Of a DNA stretch of 64,000 nt, positions 10,495 to 46,924 are shown piece by piece; the stretch's first letter is position 1; each line of letters starts with the position of its first letter. The position numbers and the translations under genes were made by a program. Source of the stretch: Bartonella melophagi K-2C (lineage in GTDB: Bacteria; Pseudomonadota; Alphaproteobacteria; Rhizobiales; Rhizobiaceae). The DNA is taken from NCBI RefSeq assembly GCF_000278255.1, contig NZ_JH725081.1, positions 286,484-350,483 on the forward strand, read 5' to 3'. Below the pieces are notes generated by a model. The model had not been told where the DNA came from and did not search any database. It saw nothing but the letters and a program-made list of their open reading frames with translations.

Positions 10495-10835
10495 TGGAAG
10501 TTGTTCTTTCTTTAGGCATTGGTGTTTTTATTGGATCAGGCATTTGGCTTCTTTTGCGTCCACGAACTTTTCAAGTTATTCTTGGTTTATCGTTGCTCTC
10601 TTATGGGGTTAATCTTTTTATATTTTCAATGAGCAGACCACGCAACAATGCAGCGCCTATTATTGATCCTTCTATTGTGATTAATCCTGCAAATTATGTT
10701 GATCCTTTACCTCAGGCTTTAGTTTTGACAGCAATTGTGATTGGTTTTGCAACGACAGCGCTATTTTTAGTCATCCTTTTGGTTTCACGCGGTTTAACAA
10801 ATTCAGACCACGTTGATGGACATGAAGTAAGATGA
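10494..10835 (+). CDS. phaC: Na+(K+)/H+ antiporter subunit C
   Basis: Small membrane subunit of the Mrp/Pha antiporter, homologous to NuoK. The 113 residues form three hydrophobic helices; the family's conserved segments are visible (GVFIGSGIWLLLRPR, GVNLFIFSMSRPRNNAAP, DPLPQALVLTAIVIGFATTA). It overlaps phaA by one base and phaD by four bases, which fits translational coupling and fixed subunit stoichiometry. Confidence 0.95.
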   Translation: MEVVLSLGIGVFIGSGIWLLLRPRTFQVILGLSLLSYGVNLFIFSMSRPRNNAAPIIDPSIVINPANYVDPLPQALVLTAIVIGFATTALFLVILLVSRGLTNSDHVDGHEVR

Positions 10836-12457
10836 CAGAAATTTGGCTGCGTCATTTACTTATTTTACCTGTTCTTGTGCCATTAAGCATTGGAGCAATT
10901 CTTCTGTTTTATGATGAACGTCGTTCACAGCTTAAATCACGCATTAGCCTTTTTTCCGCGGGTTTATTGGTTGTTATTTCTGTTATTTTGCTTATGCGTA
11001 CTCTTGAAATAGCTCCAGCTTCAGATGTATATCGGCTTGGCAATTGGCCTTCTCCTTTCGGCATAGTTTTGGTTCTTGATCGCTTAAGTGCTATGATGCT
11101 TTTGCTTTCAAATGTGTTAATTGCTGCTGGTTTGATTTTTTCACAAGCTTATTGGTGTAAAGCGGGCCCTCATTTTCAGTCGCTGATGCAATTTTTGATA
11201 GTGGGGATAAATGGTGCTTTCTTAACGGGTGATTTATTCAATTTATTTGTATTTTTTGAAGTTATGTTAACCGCCTCTTATGGGCTTGCATTACATGGTT
11301 TGGGTCAATCACGGGTGCGTGCAGGTATGCATTATGTGGTCATTAACCTTGTTGCTTCATTGTTTTTCTTAATTGGTGCAGCGCTCATTTATGGGGTTGT
11401 TGGTACACTTAATATGGCTGATTTAGCTATCAAGATAAAACATATAACTGATGGGGATATTGTTTTATTTAAGGTAGGTGCAACATTTTTAGGTATTGCG
11501 TTTTTGCTCAAAGCCGGTATGTGGCCACTTAATTTTTGGTTGGTGCCAGCTTATAGTGCAGCAGCAGCACCTGTTGGTGCTTCTTTTGTGATTTTAAGTA
11601 AAGTGGGTATTTATGTTATTTTGCGTTTAACGCTATTATGTTTTAGCTCTGAAAGCGAATATTTGACTCATTTTGGTCATACGGTTTTATTTTATGGTGG
11701 GCTTGTCACACTAACTTTTGGTGTTGTTGGGGTATTAGCTAGTCAAGTTTTGAGGCGTTTGGCATCTTACAGTATTCTTGTGTCTTCTGGTACAGTGTTA
11801 ACAGCAATTGGAACAGGTAATGTGGTGCTAACTGCAGGGATACTTTTTTATATTGTTTCTTCAACTTTAGCGCTTGGAGCTTTTTTTCTTTTGGTTGAAT
11901 TGGTTGAGCGCAGTCGAGATATGGCTACTAATGTTTTGGCTGTTACAATGGAATTGTATGGTGAGGATGAAGAGGAGCAAGAAGATGAAATTGGTACTTA
12001 TTTACCAATAACTTTAGCTGTTCTTGGAGCTTGTTTTAGTATCTGTGCAATTTTGATTATTGGATTGCCTCCTTTTTCTGGTTTTGTTGCAAAATTTATG
12101 ATGCTTACAGCTATTTTAAATGCAGACGAGGGAAATTTTTCTACTTATGTGCCAGTTTTGCGTGATTGGTTTTTTATAGTTTTTGTTATTCTATCTAGTT
12201 TTGCGACTTTGGTTGCAATGATACGCATGGGCATTCGAACTTTTTGGGTTTCTTTTGAGAGTAAAGTTCCACCTATACAAATGACCGAATTTGCACCTAT
12301 CGCTGTTCTTTTTTCTTTATGTTTTATGATAACGATTATGGCTAGCCCTGTGAGTCATTATATGTCTGAAACCGCTAAGACTTTGCATGATCCTAAAAAT
12401 TATGTTGAGAGTGTTTTATTTAATTTTTCTCTTAAAAAAACTGAGAGGAATCAATGA
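10832..12457 (+). CDS. phaD: Na+(K+)/H+ antiporter subunit D
   Basis: Proton-translocating membrane subunit homologous to NuoN/NuoM. The 541 residues hold about 14 hydrophobic helices with the family's conserved parts (FVFFEVMLTASYGL near 140, FLLKAGMWPLNFWLVPAY near 230-245, GLPPFSGFVAKF near 410). A short acidic stretch, YGEDEEEQEDEIGTY, lies in a loop around residues 375-390; it looks like a cytoplasmic or periplasmic linker. The gene overlaps phaC and phaE by four bases each (ATGA type). Confidence 0.95.
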   Translation: MTEIWLRHLLILPVLVPLSIGAILLFYDERRSQLKSRISLFSAGLLVVISVILLMRTLEIAPASDVYRLGNWPSPFGIVLVLDRLSAMMLLLSNVLIAAGLIFSQAYWCKAGPHFQSLMQFLIVGINGAFLTGDLFNLFVFFEVMLTASYGLALHGLGQSRVRAGMHYVVINLVASLFFLIGAALIYGVVGTLNMADLAIKIKHITDGDIVLFKVGATFLGIAFLLKAGMWPLNFWLVPAYSAAAAPVGASFVILSKVGIYVILRLTLLCFSSESEYLTHFGHTVLFYGGLVTLTFGVVGVLASQVLRRLASYSILVSSGTVLTAIGTGNVVLTAGILFYIVSSTLALGAFFLLVELVERSRDMATNVLAVTMELYGEDEEEQEDEIGTYLPITLAVLGACFSICAILIIGLPPFSGFVAKFMMLTAILNADEGNFSTYVPVLRDWFFIVFVILSSFATLVAMIRMGIRTFWVSFESKVPPIQMTEFAPIAVLFSLCFMITIMASPVSHYMSETAKTLHDPKNYVESVLFNFSLKKTERNQ

Positions 12458-14082: not shown

Positions 14083-14392
14083 TGGTGTCTACGGCGGGAT
14101 TCGAACCCACGACCCCAGGATTCATACCACTTCGATTTTCATCGCCAGTCTTATTATTGTAAGCTGTTTGTGGTCTGGACTGTCTCTTCACCTTGAAGTA
14201 TACACTTTTTAGGCGCTGCCCGTTCAGTCTCTACACCTTCCTTGTTTTTTTAAAACAGGCTTGGCTCGGGATTGGCATACAGTCTCCTGTGAAGCTTTCC
14301 CCGAATTTGAGCAGATCCACTTTAAAGATTTCTCCTCAAAGCGCCCAATTTATTTAGGAATCCTGTGCTCTATCCTACTGAGCTACGCAGAC
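14083..14392 (-). tRNA. tRNA-Arg(CCU) split by a group I intron
   Basis: Reading the minus strand, the 5' exon (14392-14356, 37 nt) gives the acceptor strand GTCTGCG, a D arm and the anticodon arm up to CCT. The 3' exon (14122-14083, 40 nt) resumes with AATCCTG and gives the variable loop, the T arm (GTGGG TTCGAAT CCCGC), acceptor CGTAGAC, discriminator A and an encoded CCA. Joined, they form a normal 77-nt cloverleaf: acceptor pairs 7/7 with one G-U, and anticodon stem CAGGA/TCCTG encloses loop TTCCTAA. The intervening 233 nt sit immediately 3' of the anticodon. Agrobacterium tRNA-Arg(CCU) is known to carry a self-splicing group I intron, so this is a homologous arrangement. Confidence 0.93.
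14123..14355 (-). ncRNA. Group I intron in tRNA-Arg(CCU), probably subgroup IC3
   Basis: 233 nt with no open reading frame. Conserved core elements occur in order on the minus strand: P (AATTCGGGGAAAGC, near 14293-14308), Q (AATCCCGAGCCAAGCC, 14258-14273), R (GTAGAGACTGAACG, 14221-14234) and S (AAGAGACAGTCC, near 14175-14188). P7 can form between GACTG in R and CAGTC in S. The 5' exon ends in U, which can pair as U-G in a P1 helix CCUAA/UUGGG at the 5' end of the intron, and the intron ends in G; both are group I hallmarks. The subgroup is inferred from size and from known tRNA introns of Azoarcus and Agrobacterium. Confidence 0.9.
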
Positions 14393-14451: not shown

Positions 14452-15588
14452 TTAATCGGATTTCATTAATTTTTGTTTCAGGAAAGTCAAGACTGCATTT
14501 GGTGAAACATTTTTAGCTATAAATGATTGGCCCAGTGCGCGTGTTAGGATAAAAGTTAAGTTATTTTGCGAAACTTTTTTATCTTGGGCAATAAAAGTCA
14601 TAAGTGTTTCGGCATTTGGAAGTTTGCCGGGGATATCTTGTAGTTGTGTTGGTAAACCAACGGTTTTAAAATGTGCTTTAATACGTTGTGTCACTGTGGG
14701 ACTGATTAAATTTAATTGTTCAGAAAACTGGTGGGCTAAAATTATTCCAATAGCTACAGCTTCACCATGGATTAAACGATTTGAATCGTAAATAGTTGCT
14801 GTTTCAAGCATATGTCCAAATGTATGACCAAGATTTAGCAATGTGCGTTGGCCTGTTTCATATTCATCGTGCGTTATAATATCAGCTTTAAATTGACATG
14901 AGCGAGCAATAGCTTCTATTTGTATTGGGCCCTTGGAAAAGACTTTTTGCCAATTTTTTTCAAGCCATTCAAAAAAATGAGGCTGATTAATGAGGCCATA
15001 TTTAACCATTTCTGCATAGCCAGCGCGAAATTCGCGTGAGGGTAATGTACCAAGAACATCAATGTCAGTAATAACGCATTGGGGTTGATAGAAGGTACCG
15101 ATGAGATTCTTACCATAGGGACTATTGATTCCGGTTTTTCCACCAACGGATGAATCAATTTGTGCTAGAAGTGTTGTAGGCATTTGAATGAAATGCATAC
15201 CTCGGCGTATGATGCTTGCAGCAAATCCTGCAAGATCACCAATAACACCGCCCCCCAAAGCAATAATGCTATCGCCTCTTTCTAAACGAGCAGAGAGAAT
15301 TTTATCGATCACATTTTGCAAAATTGGAAACGACTTTGATTGTTCTCCTGCTTCTACGATGATGGGGAGAGTGTAGATTTCATTTTCTGCTAATTTTGTC
15401 TGCAATGTGTTCAAATGAAAAGCAGCAACATTTTTATCTGTAACAATAGCTAAACGTATTTTTTGATGAGAACTCTTTTGATACAAATAATGCTTAATCT
15501 TTGAAACTGCTTGTGCAATTAAACCTGAGCCGATAACGATATCATAACAATGTTTATTCAGTTTGACAGTAACAATTTTGGTTTGCAT
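14452..15588 (-). CDS. aroB: 3-Dehydroquinate synthase
   Basis: Second shikimate-pathway enzyme: NAD- and metal-dependent cyclisation of DAHP to 3-dehydroquinate. 378 residues with the family's conserved parts: substrate-site [12 protein letters not shown]-binding [32 protein letters not shown], and the metal-ligand histidines in [12 protein letters not shown] and HGEAVAIG. It lies 17 bases downstream of aroK on the same strand, the normal alphaproteobacterial aroK-aroB pair, so one transcript is likely. Confidence 0.97.
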
Positions 15589-46803: not shown

Positions 46804-46888
46804 AGCCACCGACTGGGACCCCACTTATAAGGGTATAAAAGATCCCAGAGGTCAACATCCGATAACGCGTTGCGTCCTCGGATGTCAT
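46804..46888 (+). ncRNA. Structured two-hairpin leader RNA upstream of ffh
   Basis: Two adjacent stable hairpins end about 37 bases before the ffh start. Hairpin 1: ACC-GA-CTGGGA (46808-46818) pairs with TCCCAG-A-GGT (46843-46852), enclosing a CCC/GGG inner pairing. Hairpin 2: ACATCCGA (46855-46862) with TCGGATGT (46878-46885), containing an inner ACGC-GTT-GCGT helix. This GC-rich block stands out in AT-rich surroundings and has no T tract, so it is not a terminator. A conserved RNA motif called ffh, located upstream of ffh genes, has been described from comparative genomics; I think this is an instance but cannot confirm the match. Confidence 0.65.
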
Positions 46889-46924
46889 TTTGATTTGTTT
46901 GTTATGTGGTCGATGAGGTAGATG

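Follow-up and report, generated by a model that had tools for sequence, protein, structure and literature searches.

A group I intron interrupting the tRNA-Arg(CCU) gene of Bartonella melophagi K-2C

On the minus strand of the 64,000-nucleotide stretch of Bartonella melophagi K-2C DNA that was analysed (“the window”), the gene for tRNA-Arg(CCU) occurs in two pieces, at 14392-14356 and 14122-14083, which flank a 233-nt insert (14355-14123) located directly 3' of the anticodon base U36. The insert is, with very little room for doubt, a group I intron orthologous to those already known from the tRNA-Arg(CCU) genes of Alphaproteobacteria, a ribozyme that would remove itself and is probably inherited with the chromosome. 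The phenomenon is already known, since an intron in the same gene and the same genus is described in a published paper (PMC7717549).

The 5' exon (14356-14392) comprises the 5' strand of the acceptor stem, the D arm, the 5' strand of the anticodon stem and the loop as far as the anticodon (UUCCU), a layout that is identical in 37 loci of the same genus and in two more, and the 3' exon (14083-14122) comprises the remainder of the anticodon arm, the T arm, the 3' strand of the acceptor stem and an encoded CCA. With the CCA counted, the joined tRNA is 77 bases long; in the cloverleaf that ARAGORN draws for it, the acceptor stem and the T stem each contain a single G-U pair. A preliminary description of this DNA had proposed that a perfect cloverleaf results if 233 nt are removed from behind the anticodon; the coordinates, the anticodon and the length are exact, and only the word “perfect” is slightly strong in view of the two G-U pairs. 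It had also warned that tRNA finders can miss the gene and had suggested a search in intron mode. Both points proved sound: with its default settings, which do not allow introns, ARAGORN returns a tRNA-Gly alone from the whole window, and in intron mode it recovers the exact gene on the complement of 14083-14392 as tRNA-Arg (cct), interrupted from tRNA position 38 by an intron of 233 bases.

The assignment of the insert to the group I class can be evaluated directly with a covariance model, as had likewise been suggested. The model RF00028 matches positions 14365-14164 of the minus strand over model positions 1-253 with 66.9 bits, above the curated gathering score of 50 (E 8.7e-15), and this is the sole match at E <=0.001 in the 1,571,225-base genome. 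The ends of the match are not the splice sites, because the match takes in the last 10 bases of the 5' exon and leaves off the final 41 bases of the intron; the splice sites were deduced from the tRNA, the U before the intron, the G at the intron end and the relatives. So placed, the intron (14123-14355) begins after U36, ends in G and contains helices P1 to P9b. No open reading frame of at least 80 amino acids overlaps it, and at 233 nt it has no room for a homing endonuclease gene. Neither promoter-like sites (2, where shuffles average 3.3) nor terminators (0, where they average 0.7) exceed chance. Subgroup IC3 is the usual class of bacterial tRNA introns of the tRNA-Arg(CCU) type.

The internal guide sequence, AAUUGGG (14344-14350, minus strand), has the pairing partners that are expected of it on both exons: its GGG pairs with the CCU of the 5' exon to form P1, with a U.G pair at the splice site, and its AUU pairs with the AAU of the 3' exon to form P10. 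The combination of a 5' splice-site U paired to a guide G with a terminal intron G is present in the window, in all 48 aligned rows inspected and in 75 of the 75 parsed loci from a wider scan, a count from which five of the 80 loci listed are absent because they were not parsed. The U-G at the 5' splice site and the terminal G, together with a P7 pairing, had been reported in the preliminary description, and all of them are borne out; P7 has the strands GACT...AGTC, and the remaining helices can be found as well.

The group I helices were drawn by hand from the letters and then counted across 112 distinct aligned sequences, namely 39 from Bartonella, 9 others and 64 wider-scan loci that remained after 11 duplicates had been dropped, with counts that ignore kinship. 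In this alignment 6191 of 6615 cells (93.6%) are in standard pairs, and both sides of the pair change at 36 of the 61 pairs; the Bartonella rows alone (n=39) have 2257 of 2359 cells paired and both-side changes at 18 pairs. Pairing in the core helices reaches 100% in P3, 94.5% in P4, 100% in P6, 99.8% in P7 and 89.5% in P8, and both-side changes occur in P3, P6 and P8 and are absent from P4 and P7, which hardly vary. P1 is paired in 336 of 336 cells and P10 in 312 of 336, shares that are partly selected because the pattern used to collect the 64 wider-scan rows demands AATTGGG, whereas the rest of the rows, 39 from Bartonella and 9 others, were found independently of it. Since P1, P4, P7 and P10 contain no both-side change, they are little informed by covariation. 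The weakest helix is P9a, with 75.8% of its cells paired. If one strand is slid by one or two columns, pairing drops in every helix except the two-pair inner P2 (82% against 83% at one shift).

The insert also folds better than shuffled versions of itself (z -3.5, with 1 of 200 shuffles as good), and the retention of the intron in 39 of 39 genomes of the genus makes chance untenable as an explanation. The minimum-energy fold contains the P4, P5 and P9 helices and lacks P2, P3, P7 and P8; it was set aside as a structure. The P3/P7 pseudoknot is beyond the reach of a minimum-energy program.

The closest known system is BbgpI, a group I intron reported in 2020 from a tRNA-Arg(CCU) gene that had gone unannotated in B. 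bacilliformis; it is described as splicing in vivo and self-splicing in vitro, and as a member of the family whose first example came from Agrobacterium tumefaciens (PMC7717549). The paper gives a locus (c42404-42711) of 308 bases, similar in length to the 310 bases of the window locus, and states that tRNAscan-SE found the tRNA only after removal of the intron (PMC7717549). Both genes escape a tRNA finder until the intron has been taken out or is permitted. Compared by the locus length given there, the window locus is 2 bases longer and is therefore not the same copy. A literature search found only this one paper that pairs Bartonella with a group I intron in its title or abstract.

The Agrobacterium tumefaciens intron interrupts the same tRNA at the same site as the window intron, and five Agrobacterium loci with a cct intron were found (L204, L206, L229, L245 and L246), in agreement with the kinship that the preliminary description had named. 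They are about 73-75% identical to the window over tRNA and intron, and lie apart from it in the intron tree. The Agrobacterium intron was reportedly described by Reinhold-Hurek and Shub in 1992, in a study that PMC7717549 cites. Insertion directly after the anticodon, which defines membership in the alphaproteobacterial tRNA-Arg(CCU) intron family, is found in the window copy. The introns of Azoarcus tRNA-Ile(CAU) and cyanobacterial tRNA-Leu(UAA) are likewise small and ORF-less, and lie in the anticodon loop with a U.G splice site and a terminal G; their hosts are other tRNAs.

Related introns were also encountered in other tRNA genes of the Rhizobiales. One genus carries a group I intron in tRNA-Thr(GGU) after U36 (L093, L095, L098, L099, L103, L105 and L106), which ARAGORN calls in six of the seven fetched loci; in the seventh (L098) it misparses the same gene. 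A further match, in an eighth genome (G241), lies outside the fetched loci. In the five of these loci that were inspected the guide is TTGCC, a sequence suited to the GGU exon, as though the intron had been retargeted. A literature search of titles and the beginnings of abstracts found no published bacterial tRNA-Thr intron, which does not prove that there is none. Several Rhizobiales genera carry, in tRNA-Leu(UAA), group I introns that share the P7-region motif (L084, L085, L090, L094, L096, L097 and others), and the intron-bearing tRNA-Phe, tRNA-Ser and tRNA-Stop that ARAGORN reports in other Rhizobiales were discarded, as they look by their letters like misparsed tRNA-Leu(UAA). In one further genome (G203, contig C36) two group I intron matches lie 1.2 kb apart, at 12146-12405 (L083) and 10660-10912, and have the two highest scores among the order-sample matches listed; ARAGORN finds no tRNA in L083. 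The window itself also holds a match to the ffh sRNA family at 46841-46892 on the plus strand (RF01793, 56.9 bits).

The distribution of the tRNA-Arg(CCU) intron is uniform within Bartonella and patchy outside it. In all 39 Bartonella genomes examined, an intron of 224-278 nt interrupts tRNA-Arg(cct) from tRNA position 38. A search of relatives gave matches in 36 of 37 genomes of the genus, including that of the window, and in 0 of 24 genomes of other families, and a search of the family added two further Bartonella genomes with the intron. The apparent loss in the one remaining Bartonella genome (G033) was rejected, for a DNA search recovers tRNA and intron at 85% identity and the Rfam score on the locus alone is 53.0 bits; because this genome was missed under stricter filters, the Rfam counts of 41 of 397 genomes in the order sample and 38 of 394 in the family sample are lower bounds. 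An exact pattern for the intron-bearing gene is present in at least 38 of 394 family genomes, spread over 20 of 109 genera; it hits 8 of 8 genomes in the window's genus and at least 30 of 386 family genomes outside it. This too is a lower bound, since the pattern misses, for example, a genome (G777, locus L134) in which the guide starts one base after the anticodon. A pattern for the intron-free anticodon arm matches 0 of the 8 Bartonella genomes and matches CCU tRNAs in other genera. Its total of 88 of 394 genomes cannot be taken as a count of intron-free CCU tRNAs, because many of the matches are CAU tRNAs with two or three mismatches and unlike stems are missed. In one genome (G759), judged by pattern matches only, an intron-bearing and an intron-free CCU tRNA are apparently about 5 kb apart (C3:545087-545113 and C3:539763-539790).

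The wider scan, which requires AATTGGG, found at least 118 stretches, 80 of which were listed; ARAGORN identifies 75 of these as cct with an intron, two (L196 and L203) are the same gene misparsed, and three (L202, L216 and L249) are unparsed. The genera and groups among the matches listed include Bartonella, Agrobacterium, Neorhizobium, Phyllobacterium, Methylobacterium, Rhodobacter, Azospirillum, Magnetospirillum and Acetobacteraceae. The preliminary description had called the retention of the intron notable; this is overstated, given that the intron is present in every Bartonella genome examined and in many other Alphaproteobacteria, and is already published.

The manner in which the Bartonella introns were acquired can be evaluated with the help of the upstream neighbour of the tRNA, an open reading frame at 14452-15588 on the minus strand that we take, from its sequence, to be aroB, encoding 3-dehydroquinate synthase. 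This gene adjoins the tRNA in 35 of the 39 Bartonella loci, in 31 of them over 320 or more aligned residues uninterrupted by a stop and in four (L003, L005, L028 and L111) in fragments, and no match to it was found in the stretch examined at the other four (L002, L009, L030 and L061). The aroB beside the tRNA seems to be broken in the former group and lost or moved in the latter, and the intron-bearing tRNA is intact in both. An aroB match is also adjacent in five of nine non-Bartonella loci and in Mesorhizobium liriopis (L207). Intron distances are correlated with AroB distances over 36 rows (r 0.869), over the 31 Bartonella rows (r 0.876) and over the 23 rows that remain without the eight-row B. 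choladocola clade (r 0.674), with 0 of 2000 permutations as high in each case. The presence of the intron in all 39 genomes, its position beside aroB in 35 of them and a divergence that tracks AroB make descent within the genus likely, and descent with the chromosome is the likely best reading for Bartonella. The vertical inheritance asserted in the preliminary description therefore holds at the level of the genus; across the Alphaproteobacteria, the patchy spread agrees with horizontal movement.

There is a small residual chance that the Bartonella introns were instead gained by repeated horizontal transfer. Outside the genus the intron is patchy, as the pattern counts and the intron-free CCU tRNAs of other genera attest, and Paquin et al. 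are said to have argued in 1999 for horizontal transmission. In the intron tree a locus of another genus on a long branch (L130) falls inside Bartonella; two changes are required by the starred branches, and a single change suffices in 0% of 200 bootstrap trees, none of which unites Bartonella in one group. In a quick AroB tree two loci of another genus (L124 and L125) join one Bartonella clade (SH-aLRT 92). Repeated transfer is opposed, however, by the completeness of the intron's presence in Bartonella and its usual place beside aroB, by the correlation of the two sets of distances, and by an AU test in which a single Bartonella clade is not rejected (log-likelihood 19.99 lower, p 0.209).

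A particular transfer was also considered. Two Commensalibacter loci are 79% identical to the window intron, a match that hinted at an exchange between bee symbionts, but the proposal is unsupported, as the tree groups Commensalibacter with Acetobacter (91/85, on a branch that is not starred); a shared A+T-rich composition likely lies behind the near match.

The two-step splicing chemistry is established for group I introns, and the window copy would be expected to follow it and to yield mature tRNA. The precursor tRNA would be transcribed with the intron inside, and the intron would fold into the ribozyme, in which the guide AAUUGGG holds both the anticodon CCU of the 5' exon and the AAU of the 3' exon. 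The cut after U36 would then be made by a free guanosine docked at P7, and the freed 5' exon would attack after the terminal G, joining the exons as tRNA-Arg(CCU). The element, which has no endonuclease gene, is in Bartonella probably passed on with the chromosome, mostly beside aroB.

Whether the cell needs the product is a separate question. A genome search gives 38 tRNA matches, among which ARAGORN finds arginine anticodons ACG, CCG and UCU and no intact CCU tRNA, in line with the earlier suggestion that the interrupted gene is likely the only CCU-reading one. The genome is in 13 contigs, so that a second CCU tRNA may be unassembled, and the ARAGORN listing of the genome's tRNA loci contains no tRNA-Ile(GAU) and no tRNA-Ala(UGC), which suggests that some region is absent from the assembly or the search. 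A UCU anticodon can in principle read AGG by wobble, and AGG is rare, at 14 of 11,203 codons in 24 hand-picked open reading frames of the window. Because the intact tRNA-Arg(UCU) may read AGG, the need for tRNA-Arg(CCU) is unproven, and the description of this tRNA as essential is not upheld.

It is improbable that the intron is retained in every Bartonella because its splicing is useful and not merely tolerated, for example by tying the level of the AGG-reading tRNA to guanosine supply or growth state. Least probable of all is that the intron is a decayed, non-splicing relic with AGG read by tRNA-Arg(UCU) alone, since, tolerable as a loss might be where AGG is rare and a UCU tRNA is present, all 39 Bartonella rows retain the guide, the two splice sites and both halves of the tRNA, P3 and P7 stay paired over the whole alignment, the tRNA survives where the adjoining aroB is fragmented or undetected, and the B. 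bacilliformis orthologue is reported to splice (PMC7717549).

The consequence is mainly one of annotation, in that the sole CCU tRNA found in the genome is invisible to ARAGORN in its default mode. The occurrence of the intron in 39 of 39 Bartonella genomes, as against its patchy occurrence elsewhere, is a small addition to what is known of a family that is said to move horizontally.
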